A stretch of DNA of 64,000 nucleotides. It comes from Marivirga tractuosa DSM 4126 (lineage in GTDB: Bacteria > Bacteroidota > Bacteroidia > Cytophagales > Cyclobacteriaceae). Location of the stretch: assembly GCF_000183425.1 (NCBI RefSeq), contig NC_014759.1, forward strand, positions 806,001 through 870,000, written 5' to 3'. Shown here one piece after another: positions 13,796 to 48,177 of this stretch. The translations under genes and the position numbers were made by a program. Below the pieces are notes generated by a model, which saw nothing but the letters and a program-made list of their open reading frames with translations, did no database searches and was not told the origin of the DNA. Numbering within the stretch: position 1 is the stretch's first letter; each line of letters begins with the position of its first letter.

Positions 13796-14011
13796 ATGAA
13801 AGTTACCGCCTTAATACCAGATAAATTAATAGAAAAGGTAAAGGCTAAAAGTGGTGGCAAAAATATCACTGAAAGTTTAATCATCGCGCTTAATGAATAC
13901 CTTAACGAGAAAAAGGTAGATGACCTTATTGATCAGGTAAATGAAAACCCTTTAGTTTGGAATGATAAATTTACTGCTGACGGAATTCGCAAAATAAACA
14001 GGTCCAGATGA
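13796..14011 (+). CDS. vapB: VapB-type antitoxin, ribbon-helix-helix
   Basis: The 71-residue protein begins MKVTALIPDKLIEKVKAKSG and continues NITESLIIALNEYLNE, the strand-helix-helix layout of an RHH DNA-binding domain. The C-terminal part (DDLIDQVNENPLVWNDKF) should wrap the toxin. It would bind the dyad upstream and neutralise the PIN-domain toxin encoded next, whose start overlaps this stop by 4 bases. Confidence 0.8.
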   Translation: MKVTALIPDKLIEKVKAKSGGKNITESLIIALNEYLNEKKVDDLIDQVNENPLVWNDKFTADGIRKINRSR

Positions 14012-14388
14012 TTATAGTGGACACTTCTGTTTGGATTGAATATTTCAAGGGTAATGAGCATTATCGAGATGTTCTTCCTAAATATTTAAAAGAGAAACAT
14101 GTTGTAGCCATTAGTGCTGTTTTTGGCGAATTACTACAAGGAGTAAAGAATAAAAGAGAACATGAAATCATAATAGGTTTCTGGGAGAGTTTACCGAAAA
14201 TAAATGAAGAAGAGTTGTTTATTGAGGCTGGTAAACTTTTCCATGAATTTAAATTTTATAATTCTGGCGTTGGTTTGATAGACACTTATTTATTGGCAGC
14301 AGCCTTAAAACATGATTATGCACTTTGGTCTTTAGATAAAAAATTGAATAAAGCGATTGATATAATCGAAAATAAACAAATTTCATGA
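14008..14388 (+). CDS. vapC: VapC-type PIN-domain ribonuclease toxin
   Basis: The 126-residue PIN-domain protein has the acidic metal-binding set D5 (MIIVDTSVWIEYF), E41 (VFGELLQG), D92 (GLIDTYLLAAAL) and D110 (WSLDKKL), all as expected for an active Mg2+-dependent endoribonuclease. VapC toxins cleave tRNA or rRNA when freed from the antitoxin. It is coupled to vapB by overlap, and its own stop overlaps the start of the transglutaminase lipoprotein gene by 4 bases, an unusual extension of a toxin-antitoxin operon. Confidence 0.85.
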   Translation: MIIVDTSVWIEYFKGNEHYRDVLPKYLKEKHVVAISAVFGELLQGVKNKREHEIIIGFWESLPKINEEELFIEAGKLFHEFKFYNSGVGLIDTYLLAAALKHDYALWSLDKKLNKAIDIIENKQIS

Positions 14389-15755
14389 TAAAGAACACTT
14401 CCCTCCTATTACTAATTTCTTTTTTTCTATTTGCTTGTCAACCCGGTGAAAAACAAAACTCGAAAGAAAAGAAGTCCAATAATAATGAAATAAGCAAGCC
14501 AGTTCCTACAGTTGATATAGCAGATATTGAAACGGGAATAAAACACTATATCCAAAATAAAACTGAAGAGGCTGATGGCTATTTTCATGTGAAAGATGAG
14601 AATAAGGAATTGCGATTAAAACTTGTAAGAGTCCATACGGAATATCTTTCCAATCTAGGACCAAACCGGCATTTTGCTTGCGTTGATTTAGCAGATGAAA
14701 AAGGTGATGTCTATGATGTGGATTTTTTCATGGAAGGAAAGCCTGGTGCCATGGATGTTACGGAAACGACAGTTCACAAGTTAAATGGAAAGCCCTATTA
14801 CAGCTGGAAGCAAAAGAAAGATAAAACCTGGCATAGAGTACCTATTGAATCAGCCTCAAACGAATTGCTAGGAGTAATTGAAGAAAAAGATGAGTTTGAA
14901 TTTTATTATGAAACTACTTTACCTAACATTAAAAATGAAGCTAAGGTATGGATTCCCATAGCTCAATCTGATAAATTTCAGGACATAGAAATAAAAAGTA
15001 TGCAAATCCATGGCGAGGATGAAATGCTAAAGGAGACTGAATTCGGAAATAAAGTATTGTTTCTACAATTGAATCAAGAGCACAGCAATAAAAAAGTTCG
15101 AATAACTTATCAAGTCATAAGAAGAGAGAAAAGTGCATATTCCGAAGAAAATCCAAATTTAGTTAAATATTTGAATGAGAATGTGTTGATGCCGGTTGGC
15201 ACAGATCGATTCAAAGAAATAGTTGCGGAAGCTACTGCTGGCATGGAAAATGACAATAAGCTTATTCAGGCACGAGCAATTTACGACTATATTATTGACA
15301 ATATGCGCTATGCAAAAAATATAAAATATGGAACGGGTGATGCTGTTTATGCATGTGATTCCAAAACTGGAAATTGTACGGAATTTCATTCACTCTTCAT
15401 TTCCTTAGCTAGAACAGCCAATATTCCAGCGCGTTTTGCCATCGGTGCAGCTATTCCATCTGACCGAGATGAAGGTGGTATCAATGGTTATCATTGCTGG
15501 GCAGAGTTCTATGCAGAAGATAAATGGTGGCCTGTAGATATTAGTGAAGGCAACAAGTACACTGCCTTGGCAACCTACTACTTTGGAAGGCACCCAGCCA
15601 ATAGAATTGAGTTTACTAAAGGGCGTGACTTGAGATTTGAACCTGCCCCTCAATCAAGTCCAGTAAAGTTTATGGCATACCCAATCTTTGAAGTGGATGG
15701 TGAAAGCCAGGTAAGTAACGCTAAATTCAGTTTTGAAAGAAGAAACATAAATTAA
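14385..15755 (+). CDS. Transglutaminase-like lipoprotein
   Basis: The 456-residue protein has a lipobox ending at C18 (FFLFAC), so it should be anchored in the envelope. The C-terminal half holds a transglutaminase-core domain with the triad C331 (GNCTEFHSLF), H370 (GYHCWAEF) and D385 (WPVDISEG). The N-terminal half contains a segment (about 60-160) that may be a separate beta-rich domain. Prokaryotic members are often proteases, amidases or crosslinkers acting on peptides; the substrate here is unknown. The start overlaps vapC, which links it to the toxin-antitoxin transcript. A hairpin terminator follows at 15761. Confidence 0.8.
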   Translation: MIKNTSLLLLISFFLFACQPGEKQNSKEKKSNNNEISKPVPTVDIADIETGIKHYIQNKTEEADGYFHVKDENKELRLKLVRVHTEYLSNLGPNRHFACVDLADEKGDVYDVDFFMEGKPGAMDVTETTVHKLNGKPYYSWKQKKDKTWHRVPIESASNELLGVIEEKDEFEFYYETTLPNIKNEAKVWIPIAQSDKFQDIEIKSMQIHGEDEMLKETEFGNKVLFLQLNQEHSNKKVRITYQVIRREKSAYSEENPNLVKYLNENVLMPVGTDRFKEIVAEATAGMENDNKLIQARAIYDYIIDNMRYAKNIKYGTGDAVYACDSKTGNCTEFHSLFISLARTANIPARFAIGAAIPSDRDEGGINGYHCWAEFYAEDKWWPVDISEGNKYTALATYYFGRHPANRIEFTKGRDLRFEPAPQSSPVKFMAYPIFEVDGESQVSNAKFSFERRNIN

Positions 15756-16169: not shown

Positions 16170-16934
16170 CTAAATAGAATCTCTTTCCAAAACTTGGATC
16201 AATTTTTCAATGTATATAGATTGCCTTCTATTCCAATAATTTATGTTGCTAAGTCTACTATTATGACCCTCTAATAAGGTATTGATTTCGTTAATCTTCT
16301 TTTGAAATTTTGTCAAATTCTCCTTTCGTCTCAATTCCTGATTTTGAATTTGCTTGGAAAGCAAACCAATTTTTAGAGTTTGCTTCTCTAAATCATTACC
16401 AATTGCTTCTTGTTTAAGTCTTATTCTGTTACTATCAACATATGATTGATAACCAATTGCGCCTATAAAAATGAATAACAGTAATAAAATAATACCAGGA
16501 ATGAGGAAATTAGCCTTCAACCCTCCTTTAGAAATTTGTTCTGGTTGACCAGCTTTGGGTGCAATCACATATTTCTTACCCGCATATTGAAATAACTGAA
16601 TCAATAAGTCACTATCTGCAATGGTTTGTTGTTGATAATCTTGAAAATCACGATTACCAATAATAATTAAATTATCTTGTAAAGGAGTATAGGGAATAGA
16701 AAAACAAGATCCATTTTCTTCTAACTTTTTTAAAAACACAACCAACTGAAAATATTCTGACAATGCTGATTGCATATTATCACCTAATTGAATGTAGGCA
16801 GTTTGTGTATAAGTAGAAATCTGCAGACAACTTTTTGAAATAAAATATGGAGCTATATCTTTCAAGTACAAAACATCCCCAGCTCGTTCTTCAAGCTCTT
16901 TTATAACGGTATGTTCGAAAGTTGTATAGTTCAT
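16170..16934 (-). CDS. Membrane protein with coiled coil, unknown
   Basis: The 254-residue protein has a cytoplasmic-looking N-terminal domain (about 1-138), one membrane helix (about 143-166) and a charged coiled-coil region (about 170-250). No signal peptide or catalytic motif is evident. It starts 16 bases after the alanine racemase stop, so it is probably the last gene of the papain-like/racemase unit. The family is not known to me. Confidence 0.6.
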   Translation of the reverse strand: MNYTTFEHTVIKELEERAGDVLYLKDIAPYFISKSCLQISTYTQTAYIQLGDNMQSALSEYFQLVVFLKKLEENGSCFSIPYTPLQDNLIIIGNRDFQDYQQQTIADSDLLIQLFQYAGKKYVIAPKAGQPEQISKGGLKANFLIPGIILLLLFIFIGAIGYQSYVDSNRIRLKQEAIGNDLEKQTLKIGLLSKQIQNQELRRKENLTKFQKKINEINTLLEGHNSRLSNINYWNRRQSIYIEKLIQVLERDSI

Positions 16935-16950
16935 GATTTAAATTATTCAA

Positions 16951-18108
16951 TCATCGTACAATAGTCCTAGGTATTGCCGAAGGCAATCTACTTAACATTT
17001 CATTATTTAACAATTGGGTAGAATTAGTAAAGCTACTTACATTAATAACATTATTCTTCTGCCTTCCAATGAGTACCACTTCATCACCCACTTTTGCTTG
17101 AGGTATATGAGTTATGTCTACCATAAATAAGTTCATATTAATCAATCCCACTATAGGTGCTTTTTTCCCAGCAATCAAAACATACCCCCTATTAGAAAGT
17201 GCTCTGGGATAGCCATTAGAGTAACCCAATGGCATTACTGCTATTTTCATTTTATGGCTGGCCTGAAAGGCTGTTCCATAACCAATGAAATCTCCTTCAG
17301 GTACATCTCTAATATCCATAATATCCGTTTTCCAGCTAAAAATACGCTTTAAAGCACCATCGGATTTCTTATCTGTTTCTTGTAAATGATGATAGTATAT
17401 ATCAGGACTAGGCCAAAAACCATATTGAGCAACCCCCACCCTTACCAAATCGTAAACCGTATCTGGCATAGCTAAAGCAGCTGCCGAACATGCAATATGT
17501 CTAATTTTGGGCTCATACTTTTTATCCCTGCAGATTTTAAGAAACTCTTTATACTTTGCTTTTTGCTTATCGATTTTGAACTGATTACTCAAACTCTCAG
17601 CACCTCCAAAATGTGTACACAATCCTTGAAAAACAACATGTTCCTTATTTTTCTTTAAGAAGCTAATTGCTTTGGGGAATTCTTCGGCAGGCATGCCTGT
17701 CCGGTTTGCGCCTGTTTCTACTTCTATATGGACTTTAGCTGATTTCCCAACTTTTTTAGCTGCTTCTAGAGTGATAGGTAATCTGTCATAGTTATAAACA
17801 AAAAACTCAATATTATTTTCAATTGCCCACGGGATATCCTCTTCATAGATTATCCCCATGATCATGATCTCGCTTTTCTCGTGGCAAGCATTGAGCACCT
17901 CTTCTGCTTCAAAAGACGAAGCTACAGAAAAATGGTGCACGCCAGCTTTTTCAGCCATGGGCACAAAAGACTCAATCCCATGTCCATAGGCATTAGCTTT
18001 GACCACCGAAGATAGGATAGCGTTCTTTCCTATCTTCTTTTTTATAAAATTAATATTTGCTTTTAAGGCTGATTGTTTCAGCTCTATTCTCGAAGAGTGT
18101 TTTACCAT
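16951..18108 (-). CDS. alr: Alanine racemase family, PLP-dependent
   Basis: The 385-residue protein has the PLP-binding lysine K37 in VVKANAYGHG, the RVGVAQYG motif (223-230) and the catalytic tyrosine Y277 in FIGYGTAF. It should interconvert L- and D-alanine or a related amino acid. Two usual acids are Asn here: GYSNGYPR (295-302) instead of GYADGYPR, and NMN (324-326) where MD is common. In many Bacteroidota the housekeeping racemase is fused to MurF, so a free-standing one may be dedicated to another pathway; the fused gene cannot be checked here. It overlaps the 664-residue gene upstream by 7 bases and is 16 bases from the next gene. Confidence 0.85.
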   Translation of the reverse strand: MVKHSSRIELKQSALKANINFIKKKIGKNAILSSVVKANAYGHGIESFVPMAEKAGVHHFSVASSFEAEEVLNACHEKSEIMIMGIIYEEDIPWAIENNIEFFVYNYDRLPITLEAAKKVGKSAKVHIEVETGANRTGMPAEEFPKAISFLKKNKEHVVFQGLCTHFGGAESLSNQFKIDKQKAKYKEFLKICRDKKYEPKIRHIACSAAALAMPDTVYDLVRVGVAQYGFWPSPDIYYHHLQETDKKSDGALKRIFSWKTDIMDIRDVPEGDFIGYGTAFQASHKMKIAVMPLGYSNGYPRALSNRGYVLIAGKKAPIVGLINMNLFMVDITHIPQAKVGDEVVLIGRQKNNVINVSSFTNSTQLLNNEMLSRLPSAIPRTIVR

Positions 18109-20096
18109 TTTTTCTTTGTTTCCAGCCAGGTATATGATTTCCCCCAGCTATCTTTTGCTAATGTTTTAACTTTTTCTACTTCTGAGGCAGGTATATTATC
18201 TACCATATTTTCTGCTTCCAAATCATTGAAATGGAATGCATAAGTTCTTGCAGCAAATTGATGCAATGGAAGAGATGATTCCCCGTGATACTCTCCATTT
18301 CCGAATACTGACGGTTTAATATTCTGGCCCCAGTCCTGTCGCCCTTCATTGTTAGGATTAAGAAAATAAGCTCTATATTCTCCTGATGGATCCTTGTCAA
18401 CTCTCAATAATGAAACTGCATGAAAGCCTAACATCTCACCTTTTGAACTTGTTATAAAAATCCCAACTGGATTTGGATAAATTAATTTATGTCCTCCATT
18501 ATAATTAGGGTGACACATGGCATAAAAAACTCTTACAAAACCATCAAAATCGACTATTGCATTGGAGAAATAATCATATGCTGAGGCAAATCCAATCTGA
18601 ATCCATTGTCCATAAAGCGCTGGGTTAACCCATTTATGGGGATCCTCCGCTCTTCCTGAGCCACGCAACATCATCTCATTATAGATTCTGTCTAACATTG
18701 GTACAAGCGTGACAGAGACTGCATCCAAATTATAATCAAGATTTTGTACTAAACCTTGCCCGGTCACAGATGCTTTGATTTCCTGTCCTTCGAAGCGGAA
18801 AGTAATATCATTTGTAACTGCTGCCGTTTGCACCATGTTGATCAATTTAGCAGGAGCATGTTGACTCCACATGCTAATCCCTCGGGCACTCTGGCAGGTA
18901 GGATTGTTTCCTTGACCAACACCTAATGGCTGTCCTAATATTCTAAAGAGCGCTCCAATCAAATATTGTCTAGCACTCACTGCCTGATGTGGGTTTCTAG
19001 TAGATTTCAATATCCTTTCCTCTACGTGAGGATGAATCTTGATTCCACTTAGATTAGATAAGCCAGATCTTACAGCTTCCCTTGCAATGGTACCATTTTC
19101 AAGCATCTTAGCCAAACCATAGATACATTGTGCATTGTAAATATGGACAGTTTTTAGGATTAGATCAGATAGATATTCTGTAAGCTCATTCCATCTCGTT
19201 TCACCTACAGGCGTTAATCCTAATGCGACAGGAACAGTTTGAAAATGCTCATTTTCAATTAAAAACTTTAGTATTACAGCATGATATTGACTGACCAAGC
19301 CATATTTCAGCATTGATTCCCCCATTTCTTCTGACTCAATATAAAGCTCTGTGTTATTTAAGCTCTCTAGCACTGCTTGATATTCAGTCACATTTTTACC
19401 TTCAGTATTGTTTGTTGGTCTATAAATGCATCGCTGAAAACTTAATAATTTTTGGTCTCCCTCCTTATTAGGATCTAGTTCTATTTTCTCCTTAACTAAA
19501 GCAATAATTTTTCTTTGCTTCTCGGTAACTACGGGTCTTTGTTCACAAATCAGCGTAAGTTCTTCTGCCAATGTTTCCTTTACATCATCTAGATGAATAT
19601 GCTGAGAAAGAAAATTGAAAAGATTGTGAACCTTATGTAATTCATGCTCGCTCATGGTAAGGCGAGTTTCTTCTACAGGATCGTTGAAAACAAATTCTAA
19701 ATTTGCTACGATTACCTCCTGTATGAAACCTTCAGCATCTTCTGCAGAAATGATATCTGTTTTGTAATCGCCTTTTGCTATTGCGAGTAATCTGAGTTCA
19801 CTTAAAAGTTCAATTGTGGAGTTAGGATGACCGCTTTTCAAAGTTCCATTTACTAAGCCTGCAACCAATTTAGAAGGATCAGCCCAAGGCGATTCATTAA
19901 AAATACCACCTTCAGATATTTCTTCAATCAAATCATATACTAAAGCTAATCCTTCTACAGAATCACTTAAAATATCGATTTGTCCCATTAGACGGTTCGC
20001 CTTCTCCGGTCTTGTTAAGGAAGTCGCAGAGGAGAACTCCTCTAATAGTTCTTGTAATTTTTGATTACTATTATCAATTAATGTTTGATTCCCCAT
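18102..20096 (-). CDS. Large protein with papain-like Q-C-H-N set, unknown
   Basis: I do not recognise this 664-residue family. Residues 1-380 look helical and soluble; no signal peptide is seen. The C-terminal part (about 380-620) has Q395 and C401 in GQGNNPTCQSARG, H559 in GFHAVSL and N580 in YFLNPNNEG. Order, and the six-residue step from Gln to Cys, match papain (Q19, C25, H159, N175), which suggests a cysteine peptidase or transpeptidase/ligase fold. It overlaps the alanine racemase gene by 7 bases and follows an ATP-grasp gene, though a hairpin separates it from the latter. The enzymatic role is inference. Confidence 0.6.
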   Translation of the reverse strand: MGNQTLIDNSNQKLQELLEEFSSATSLTRPEKANRLMGQIDILSDSVEGLALVYDLIEEISEGGIFNESPWADPSKLVAGLVNGTLKSGHPNSTIELLSELRLLAIAKGDYKTDIISAEDAEGFIQEVIVANLEFVFNDPVEETRLTMSEHELHKVHNLFNFLSQHIHLDDVKETLAEELTLICEQRPVVTEKQRKIIALVKEKIELDPNKEGDQKLLSFQRCIYRPTNNTEGKNVTEYQAVLESLNNTELYIESEEMGESMLKYGLVSQYHAVILKFLIENEHFQTVPVALGLTPVGETRWNELTEYLSDLILKTVHIYNAQCIYGLAKMLENGTIAREAVRSGLSNLSGIKIHPHVEERILKSTRNPHQAVSARQYLIGALFRILGQPLGVGQGNNPTCQSARGISMWSQHAPAKLINMVQTAAVTNDITFRFEGQEIKASVTGQGLVQNLDYNLDAVSVTLVPMLDRIYNEMMLRGSGRAEDPHKWVNPALYGQWIQIGFASAYDYFSNAIVDFDGFVRVFYAMCHPNYNGGHKLIYPNPVGIFITSSKGEMLGFHAVSLLRVDKDPSGEYRAYFLNPNNEGRQDWGQNIKPSVFGNGEYHGESSLPLHQFAARTYAFHFNDLEAENMVDNIPASEVEKVKTLAKDSWGKSYTWLETKKKW

Positions 20097-20199
20097 GGGA
20101 TTCTAAAAATTTATAAGATTCATTGCCAAAGATAAAAAATGACAAGCGTTATTAATATTCAATTTCGCATCAAATAATGCTTAGAATATGAAAGTAAAG

Positions 20200-20233
20200 A
20201 AAATTAGCACAAGTTGATGCTTGCGCTAATTTT
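20200..20233 (-). terminator. Hairpin between ATP-grasp and papain-like genes
   Basis: Arms AAAATTAGCACAAG (20200-20213) and CTTGCGCTAATTTT (20220-20233) pair with one mismatch around a 6-base loop; on the minus strand it is followed by a T-rich run. It would end or reduce transcription from the ATP-grasp gene before the 664-residue gene. Confidence 0.6.
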
Positions 20234-20286
20234 TGATTTTAAATAAGTGGGACACAGGCAAGATGCTTGCACCACATATTTGTTTC

Positions 20287-21507
20287 TTAATGATAGAAAT
20301 CTACGTTTTCATAATGTAATAACAGTTCTGTCATTCTATCAGGATCTTCTCCTTTAAAGTTTACTGTACCAAAATGGTTCCCGAAACCAGCTCTATCACT
20401 AATTTTCTGTGTAGTCATTGGAGGTACCAAATTATGGTCTAAGAAGTAAGGCTCCTCTTTCAGCTCTTCTGGAATCTCTAGTTTGGAAATAGAATTTTTA
20501 TGAGGATAAATCATCACATTTCCGTAGAAATTCTTAGGTCTGGCATCAGGAGCAGGTAATACTTCATTCAATTCTTCTTCTGATAAATTAGGGTCATGGC
20601 ATAAAACAAATGCTCCTAAAGCATCAAAATCATATGCTTTCCCAGCTAATTCTAGGATATGACCGCCTGGAATTCTGCAGGCCACCTCGCCAAAACTCAA
20701 TGTATCGTCTTCGGTCAAGAACCATTCCGGATGAATCATACCATATTCTATACCAAATAGATCTACTAATTTCTGCATCTCTTTCATGATTTTTTCGCGC
20801 TTGGTATGCAGATAATTCCCTTCTGGAATAAAATTAGAATAGCCTAATTTTACATATTCCGTGATATTTAGGAATCTGATTTTTCCTTTATGCACAAAGG
20901 CCTCGCAAGAAAATTCTCTTCCTGGTAAGTGGCTTTCCGCTAAACATGGAAAATCGTCCTCTTCACATTTTTCTTCTATGTCAGCCTGCGAACGCAATAG
21001 ACGGTGTCCTACAGTACCTGCGGATGCAAATGGTTTAATATGAACCCAGCTATCTTCTTCTCCATCAATTTGGAGATTAGCCTGATTCAATCGTTTCATA
21101 AAGGCTTTAACACCTTCTTTATTATAAACCTCTTCAAATAACCCTACACGTAAACCACCAATTAAAGCTTTACGCTTCATCATGGCTTTATTTCTAAATA
21201 AAAATGCACGGTTTAATACACGAGGATCATCTCTATAAATAGAGTTTAATGCACCCGCCCATTCCACTGTTTCTTCAAAAAGCGGAACAGCTACGTCCAC
21301 ATTAAAGGGTTTTAATTTCTCATGTAAATCTAAAGAATTGGAGGTATCACTCCATTCATCAAATTGATAAGCAACAAATGGAATATCATGTTCTTTAGCA
21401 TATTCCTCGAAATCAGGAAATGATACCACTACATAAGGTTTGTTGAGTTTTTGCATACTTTCGATCACGGGTAAACTCCAACCCATTAGTGCAAAACAAT
21501 TTGCCAT
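20287..21507 (-). CDS. ATP-grasp domain carboxylate-amine ligase
   Basis: The 406-residue protein has an N-terminal Rossmann-like half and a typical ATP-grasp half: K111/K113 and K158 (HIKPFASAGTVG) for ATP phosphates, hinge E191 (CLAESHLPGREFSCEAF), and metal-binding E261 (HPEW) and E274 with R278 (GEVACRIPGG). Enzymes of this kind join an acyl phosphate to an amine, often amino acid to amino acid or peptide. The substrate is not evident. It is followed on the same strand by a hairpin and then the papain-like and racemase genes, which together suggest peptide or D-amino-acid chemistry; that link is inference. Confidence 0.8.
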   Translation of the reverse strand: MANCFALMGWSLPVIESMQKLNKPYVVVSFPDFEEYAKEHDIPFVAYQFDEWSDTSNSLDLHEKLKPFNVDVAVPLFEETVEWAGALNSIYRDDPRVLNRAFLFRNKAMMKRKALIGGLRVGLFEEVYNKEGVKAFMKRLNQANLQIDGEEDSWVHIKPFASAGTVGHRLLRSQADIEEKCEEDDFPCLAESHLPGREFSCEAFVHKGKIRFLNITEYVKLGYSNFIPEGNYLHTKREKIMKEMQKLVDLFGIEYGMIHPEWFLTEDDTLSFGEVACRIPGGHILELAGKAYDFDALGAFVLCHDPNLSEEELNEVLPAPDARPKNFYGNVMIYPHKNSISKLEIPEELKEEPYFLDHNLVPPMTTQKISDRAGFGNHFGTVNFKGEDPDRMTELLLHYENVDFYH

Positions 21508-48096: not shown

Positions 48097-48177
48097 GGCG
48101 AGGTAGCTCAGTTGGTTAGAGCGCAGGATTCATATCCGCTAGCTAGCGGACTGCAGTTTCAAATCTGCTTCTCGCTT
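48097..48177 (+). pseudogene. Damaged tRNA-Met copy with palindrome insert
   Basis: The first 38 bases are identical to the intact tRNA-Met at 48215 up to the anticodon (ATTCATA). Then 12 bases of the normal 3' anticodon arm and variable loop are replaced by the palindrome TCCGCTAGCTAGCGGA plus two bases, the T-loop has an extra T, and the last base is T in place of A. The anticodon stem keeps only about three pairs. It is unlikely to be a working tRNA. Confidence 0.75.
48135..48150. repeat. 16-bp perfect palindrome in tRNA-like sequence
   Basis: TCCGCTAGCTAGCGGA is its own reverse complement. The same sequence is found again at 48674-48689 in the same place relative to tRNA-Met sequence, directly after ATTCATA. 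Confidence 0.85.

Follow-up and report, generated by a model that had tools for sequence, protein, structure and literature searches.

Glutathionylspermidine synthetase/amidase is a precedent for paired activities that make and break the same amide, and the L-amino-acid ligases of the ATP-grasp superfamily are represented by the solved structures 4wd3, which we take to be RizA, and 3vot (BL00235). In the operon for N-acetylglutaminylglutamine amide (NAGGN), an osmolyte, an acetylating ligase (Ngg), an amidotransferase (AsnO) and a peptidase are encoded together (extract of PMC8070244). The locus compared with these systems here lies in a stretch of 64,000 nucleotides of Marivirga tractuosa DSM 4126 (contig NC_014759.1, positions 806,001 to 870,000), called the window below. 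It encodes an ATP-grasp ligase (GRASP), an unclassified cysteine enzyme (PAP) and a divergent enzyme of the alanine racemase family (ALR), followed by an optional fourth gene (COIL). It was found that GRASP and PAP form a unit that recurs in several phyla and is joined by ALR in Bacteroidota, and this pair, together with the Bacteroidota racemase, probably builds and trims a small compound derived from amino acids.

ORF calling confirmed the four open reading frames (ORFs) that a preliminary description of the window had listed, including their coordinates, their strand, a 7-base overlap and a 16-base spacing. All are on the minus strand. The first core gene, GRASP, occupies positions 20287-21507 (406 residues), the second, PAP, positions 18102-20096 (664 residues), and the third gene, ALR, positions 16951-18108 (385 residues), overlapping PAP by 7 bases.

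Of 148 genomes that represent the family of the window organism, 34 contain GRASP and the same 34 contain PAP, and in a sample of 395 genomes from its phylum both genes again share one set of 4; therefore, the possibility considered in the preliminary description, that PAP is widespread without GRASP, does not hold. Of these 34 family genomes, 32 have GRASP-PAP-ALR in this order on a single contig, and in the remaining two (G494 and G414) PAP itself is broken by contig ends, which leaves GRASP and ALR on the flanking fragments. All three genes are also present in three distant genomes of the phylum (G211, G104 and G227) and in a Balneolia bin (L011), and an alanine-racemase-like gene follows GRASP-PAP in every Bacteroidota locus whose contig extends far enough. 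By the criterion of the ORF start, which can sit upstream of the true start, an overlap of ALR with PAP is seen in 31 of the 35 distinct loci.

The pair was also found outside Bacteroidota. PAP is present in 35 of 249 genomes of one Bacillota order, and the gene context is known for 30 of these 35; in the sample of 34 loci from 28 genomes, GRASP is directly upstream of PAP in 29 loci, and the other five (L101, L115, L117, L119 and L126) contain a lone PAP, each in a genome that holds another GRASP-PAP locus. Six named Bacillota loci (L019-L024), two of which come from genomes among the 35 with PAP, all contain GRASP-PAP, with a second PAP nearby in three. Among 200 Gemmatimonadota genomes PAP occurs in five, and GRASP-PAP was found in six of seven distinct loci, the seventh of which begins at a contig edge; in L014/L122, one of the six, the PAP reading frame is interrupted by stop codons. 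The labels L014 and L122 denote one genome region, as do L076 and L123, and each region was counted once. In Halomonas sp. PA16-9, GRASP likewise adjoins PAP. No ALR was found beside the pair in the 34 sampled Bacillota loci or the 7 Gemmatimonadota loci, nor within the 25.8 kb around GRASP-PAP of Halomonas sp. PA16-9, and therefore ALR is a lineage-specific third member. The preliminary description had asked whether the neighborhood of PAP keeps both an ATP-grasp gene and a racemase gene: the former is kept across phyla and the latter in Bacteroidota only, so that the cluster is not supported in the form described there: the racemase lies outside the core.

The protein distances of GRASP and PAP co-vary (r = 0.83, 73 loci), and in the 34 loci with ALR the three gene pairs gave r = 0.90-0.92; none of 999 permutations gave a value as high, and such a correlation reflects shared history as well as functional coupling. 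GRASP and PAP behave as one unit, and their adjacency across phyla is far beyond chance.

The sequence supports the assignment of GRASP as an ATP-grasp ligase, as the preliminary description had proposed. GRASP matches Pfam ATP-grasp_4 with an E-value of 1.7e-5 (24.9 bits, just below the cut-off of 27), and its best solved relatives are the L-amino-acid ligases 4wd3 (E 7.7e-7) and then 3vot (E 0.008), which would place it in the RizA/BL00235 branch. Aligned with these enzymes over its residues 62-309, GRASP shares with them the Glu...Glu-x3-Arg end of the ATP-grasp site, with E261, E274 and R278 aligned under the E/E/R of 4wd3; these three residues, K158 and E191, which we take to be those of the ATP/metal site, are each at least 97% conserved in 73 loci. 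Unlike these enzymes, GRASP is always accompanied by PAP across the Bacteroidota genomes that were searched, and its similarity to them is weak. Neither a graspetide ligase nor a D-alanine-D-alanine ligase is among its NCBIfam and PDB matches.

PAP is very likely a cysteine enzyme. In an alignment of 63 rows, made up of the window protein, 45 of 120 listed homologues and 17 locus translations (L014 was excluded for its stop codons), Q395, C401, H559 and N580 are invariant, as are N398, P399 and Q402, which flank Cys401. The catalytic residues are in the C-terminal part of the protein, and the long N-terminal part comprises about 375 residues. As in papain (C1, PF00112), a Gln stands six residues before the Cys and is followed by His and Asn (spacing 158 and 21), an order that we take to be that of papain itself. 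The papain-like catalytic set of the preliminary description is thus borne out as Gln-x5-Cys...His...Asn in 63 of 63 rows, whereas a link to papain by family or profile was not obtained: unlike papain, PAP has no profile similarity or Pfam match to that family and, by eye, no signal peptide or pro-peptide, and a papain fold is unproven. PAP had no match in Pfam, NCBIfam or PADLOC, nor by profile in the PDB. Among 8000 candidates scored, 1730 homologues were obtained at E ≤ 0.001, and the named ones among the 120 listed are all annotated as hypothetical or uncharacterized. PAP proteins include a class of 653-664 residues and a shorter class, called PAP2, of 606-614 residues.

ALR was described previously as a free-standing alanine racemase, and its place in this family is confirmed by full-length homology to TIGR00492 (290 bits, cut-off 168); its score with the VanT-G model is 245 bits, below the cut-off of 460. 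Residues of the pyridoxal phosphate site are kept, namely, the Lys at the Lys39 site, the Tyr at the Tyr265 site and Arg136, each in 42 of 42 operon rows (L009 and L051 are the same genome, one duplicate among the 42), and these rows form one clade (96/85) in which two non-operon duplicates are nested. Unlike TIGR00492 proteins, ALR has Glu129 in place of the carbamylated Lys129 and Thr in place of Leu137 (42 of 42 each), and it is without the membrane domain that VanT presumably has. At the inner-gate site of Tyr354 of GsAlr, a residue that limits the pocket to alanine, Asn369 of ALR corresponds to Asn in 41 of 42 rows and to Ala in one (Ekhidna), whereas the second Alr genes of these bacteria have Tyr in 14 of 16, the two exceptions being the duplicates inside the operon clade. 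This site helps to set racemase specificity: lysine racemases and those of broad specificity have Thr or Ala there, and the serine racemase VanT has Asn (extract of PMC3485190). Therefore, ALR may act on a substrate other than alanine, and we predict a relaxed pocket with serine as the first candidate, which is less than a proven serine racemase.

The window genome contains three Alr-family genes: ALR, a second free-standing Alr that is 45% identical to it, and a MurF-Alr fusion. ALR is, therefore, not the sole racemase of the organism, a case that the preliminary description had also considered. Fifty genomes were surveyed for Alr genes. Each of the 25 Bacteroidota genomes with the operon had the operon ALR and at least two further matches, including a second free-standing gene; this gene is split in two pieces in G421, and in G406, G480 and G521 it is more closely related to the operon ALR (55-58%). 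By comparison, among the 22 genomes without the operon that were taken from the same family or order, 16 had one Alr match and 6 had a second free-standing gene, and the three surveyed Bacillota genomes had one or two matches each. In two genomes, an extra free-standing racemase (L132 and L133) away from GRASP-PAP branches with the operon ALRs and has the same Asn at the 354 site. The second free-standing Alr of the window genome is part of a cluster of its own (L129, C2:3825000-3840000), along with a symporter (SSS-type, a call made by eye), a GNAT, an ornithine-racemase-like gene (NF040742, 305 bits, below the cut-off of 480) and an M20 amidohydrolase, and an M20-Alr pairing was seen in 11 of the 16 second-Alr loci examined.

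These results are best read as a pathway, independent of non-ribosomal peptide synthetases, that makes and tailors, or else turns over, a small peptide or amino-acid amide, with a D-residue in Bacteroidota. We give about an even chance to a two-step small-molecule pathway in which GRASP makes an amide, PAP acts by means of Cys401 and ALR supplies a D-residue in Bacteroidota. GRASP would activate a carboxylate with ATP and join it to an amine, which could be an amino acid or a dipeptide-like partner. PAP would form a Cys-His-Asn acyl-enzyme on the GRASP amide, leading either to transfer or cyclization that finishes the product or to hydrolysis that recycles it. The Bacteroidota ALR, with its relaxed pocket, would provide a D-amino acid, for which serine or another polar residue is at least as likely as alanine. 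Beyond GRASP, PAP and ALR, every family is limited to at most 12 of the 83 loci (ORFs of at least 60 residues, in flanking gene families that are partly annotated), which leaves no conserved neighbor of at least 60 residues as a carrier protein, precursor peptide or exporter, and by eye the N-termini of the operon proteins do not resemble signal peptides. The product is therefore probably a small metabolite, soluble and cytosolic. The cluster of the preliminary description has in this way been upheld in part, with the D-amino-acid peptide that it suggested belonging, like all substrates, the direction of the PAP reaction and the product, to what we infer. No paper describing the GRASP-PAP cluster was found in the open-licence literature.

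By analogy only, the NAGGN operon would be the nearest functional counterpart of GRASP-PAP: both combine a non-ribosomal ligase with a second enzyme, sometimes with GNAT and peptidase genes nearby, in bacteria that are often exposed to salt. Unlike the NAGGN ligase, GRASP (406 residues, with an ATP-grasp match alone) has no fused acetyltransferase, and PAP is a different, cysteine enzyme. No AsnO-type amidotransferase was found among the flanking proteins scanned, and a genome-wide search was not made.

A role in salt stress, with the product as a compatible solute, seems to be the likeliest physiological use, which we propose tentatively and with low confidence, as plausible but circumstantial. 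The named holders belong largely to genera that we take to be marine, soda-lake or halophilic (Marivirga, Cyclobacterium, Indibacter, Halobacillus, Salibacterium, Gracilibacillus and Pontibacillus, with Halomonas in addition), and so does the 653-664-residue PAP class. The ORFs around MurF-Alr (within at most 18 kb, 20 versus 18 genomes) are more acidic in operon-positive than in operon-negative family genomes, with median isoelectric points (pI) of 5.62 and 6.06, respectively (Mann-Whitney p = 0.004). The extract of a review of solutes, PMC1224877, lists NAGGN among uncharged solutes and contains neither "D-alanine" nor "D-amino". A more specific and doubtful proposal is a new phylum-crossing route to a small peptide or amide compatible solute, built on an ATP-grasp ligase and the founding member of a new cysteine acyltransferase family, with ALR or AblB as extras. 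In this proposal, a racemase for serine or another polar amino acid would give the Bacteroidota a D-configured product, invisible to the ribosome and to peptidases, and an AblB-like acetyltransferase would cap the product in some Bacillota. As in the AblA/AblB pathway to N-acetyl-beta-lysine, a GNAT resembling AblB (TIGR03827, beta-lysine acetyltransferase; one member of the family scanned, 242 bits, cut-off 205) adjoins GRASP-PAP in 7 Bacillota loci. Unlike in that pathway, AblA is absent above the cut-off from 6 of these 7 genomes, with a weaker match in 2 of them, so that it exceeds the cut-off in 1 of 7 compared to 22 of 31 other GRASP-PAP genomes, and therefore the AblB-like acetyltransferase may serve another amine.

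Several observations weigh against the small-molecule pathway and against the salt-stress role in particular. The missing ALR beside the pair outside Bacteroidota means that the core needs no D-amino acid, and the search for GRASP without PAP covered Bacteroidota, not Bacillota or Gemmatimonadota. An hhalign comparison of the catalytic part of PAP with the C1 domains of 24 out of 30 C1 loci from the same order gave a probability of 0.9%, which is no evidence of homology (four unrelated control pairs gave 0.1-0.4%). The Glu129 and Thr137 changes of ALR are shared by 14 of 16 and 15 of 16 second Alr genes, respectively, and are thus not operon-specific, and since the named alanine racemase 1 of structure 4y2w is also without Tyr at the 354 site in the alignment, Asn there is no proof of non-alanine activity. 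As for salt, the MurF-Alr protein alone showed no pI difference (p = 0.68), and the pI statistics ignore kinship; common descent confounds the link to salt. Lysinibacillus endophyticus and Bacillus sp. T33-2 also have GRASP-PAP together with a second PAP, and the 606-614-residue PAP2 class comes mostly from Neobacillus, Lysinibacillus, Ureibacillus and Peribacillus, which we take not to be halophiles. An Rfam scan of 16 Bacillota loci gave ten matches, none of which leads GRASP.

The main rival to the small-molecule pathway is a synthetase/amidase pair of the glutathionylspermidine kind, in which GRASP would build a storage or protective amide and PAP would merely hydrolyze the same amide; we consider this unlikely but worth serious attention. 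A cysteine enzyme adjoining a ligase suits a make-and-break pair, and the lone PAPs in 5 of 34 Bacillota loci would fit a degradative role; a gene of the dipeptidase family (f23; PRK08201 in the one member scanned, 720 bits, cut-off 441) is near all five: it is divergent beside four of them, with a short ORF between in L115, and about 5 kb from the fifth (L126). The NAGGN operon of Pseudomonas aeruginosa likewise includes a peptidase (extract of PMC8070244). A mere hydrolase could be lost or swapped, yet PAP is present wherever GRASP is (34 of 34 and 4 of 4 genomes).

Less probable still is the modification of a protein or peptide, in which GRASP would modify a protein side chain or terminus with an amino acid, to be removed or transferred by PAP. 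ATP-grasp enzymes do modify peptides in the graspetides (extract of PMC8939145). The N-terminal part of PAP could bind a protein, whereas no fourth family of at least 60 residues is found in more than 12 of the 83 loci, and the GRASP matches include no graspetide ligase. An improbable third explanation is the tailoring of the cell wall, with GRASP building the D-residue from ALR into the cross-bridges or precursors of peptidoglycan. D-amino acids serve mostly in the wall, and the locus has a dedicated Alr-family enzyme with a VanT-like Asn; on the other side, the racemase-free core occurs in Gram-positive and Gram-negative phyla with different walls, the same partly annotated flanking families contain no conserved wall gene, and GRASP matches amino-acid ligases and not D-alanine-D-alanine ligase. 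No link to the wall was found for the unusual cell-wall compound of the preliminary description. That ALR is an unrelated passenger and GRASP-PAP has nothing to do with D-amino acids is very improbable, since the lack of ALR beside the pair in Bacillota, Gemmatimonadota and Halomonas is set against an ALR that comes after PAP in all 32 family genomes with a single-contig locus and in 3 of 3 distant phylum genomes, is 55% to 96% identical to the window ALR, mostly overlaps PAP and diverges along with both partners.

The preliminary description had regarded a hairpin between GRASP and the other genes as the weak point of the cluster. The hairpin is present 3′ of GRASP (20200-20233, minus strand; 14 pairs, a 6-base loop and a T-rich tail, with a fold energy of -16.4 kcal/mol) and looks like a terminator. 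It is the longest of 4 terminator-like sites in 6.1 kb, compared to 3.4 expected from shuffles, so that hairpins of this class are not rarer than chance. It is also a local feature: elsewhere the gap from the GRASP stop to the first aligned PAP residue is mostly shorter (median 46 bp, range -1 to 480; 75 rows, two of them from the same region). In a motif scan, the element TAnnTTTG, which we take to be the -7 promoter motif of Bacteroidota, was found 38 bases upstream of PAP (20127-20134, minus strand). It is at -37/-38 of PAP in all three Marivirga-genus loci scanned (the window, L041 and L042; the genus loci L004, L006 and L008 were outside the scan) and anywhere in the GRASP-PAP gap in only 3 of 33 other rows. 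This element suggests that PAP-ALR-COIL may be transcribed from a separate promoter in the Marivirga lineage. A scan for sigma-70-type promoters was uninformative (18 sites versus 22.2 in shuffles), and an Rfam scan of the window revealed no riboswitch or T-box heading the operon.

The fourth gene, COIL (16170-16934, minus strand, 254 residues), begins 16 bases past ALR and encodes a probable single-span membrane protein with a coiled-coil-like tail. The membrane part of this earlier assignment is supported by a span computed for the homologues in L041, L042 and L062, with which the window COIL aligns there, and the coiled coil was judged by eye only. COIL homologues follow ALR in the Marivirga genus, in L062 (E 2.4e-7 to the window COIL) and in L010 (E 2.8e-36 to the L062 protein); other gene families follow ALR in the remaining loci examined, and COIL is therefore an optional member. 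Gemmatimonadota loci have a DAO-type FAD oxidoreductase (L015/L016) or a Pyr_redox_2 protein (L014/L018) as neighbors, and these were rejected as members of the module because they differ between loci. Genes for a polar amino-acid ABC transporter are near PAP in some Bacillota, at L019:9339-11576 (binding protein, permease and ATPase) and a few genes from PAP in L099 and L103. In the scan of 16 Bacillota loci, a cyclic di-AMP riboswitch (RF00379) was found downstream of GRASP-PAP-PAP2 at L093:6006-6146, about 300 bases past PAP2, and a second at L019:11694-11841, past PAP2 and beyond the three-gene transporter. A 928-residue metagenome protein (P0283) joins about the first 280 positions of the ArgJ profile to a PAP2-type protein; this fusion was set aside as a clue to function, being a single case with a truncated ArgJ and likely the product of assembly or a local deletion. 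A mobile origin was rejected, since PAP matches no phage record and its sole "plasmid" match is a 1.83-Mb Halomonas record, and a role in anti-phage defence was rejected because PADLOC models match none of the four operon proteins. Elsewhere in the window, a PIN-domain gene (14008-14388) overlaps by 4 bases a transglutaminase-core gene (14385-15755) whose start resembles a lipoprotein signal by eye, and ARAGORN places a selenocysteine tRNA (anticodon tca, 48097-48177) beside a tRNA-Met.

By this comparison, proteins annotated as "hypothetical" become members of a metabolic unit that can be tested. If the proposed pathway is correct, the unit would add a new enzyme family to ATP-grasp peptide chemistry, along with a racemase with a predicted non-alanine pocket, and its product may be an unrecognized osmolyte of marine and salt-lake bacteria.

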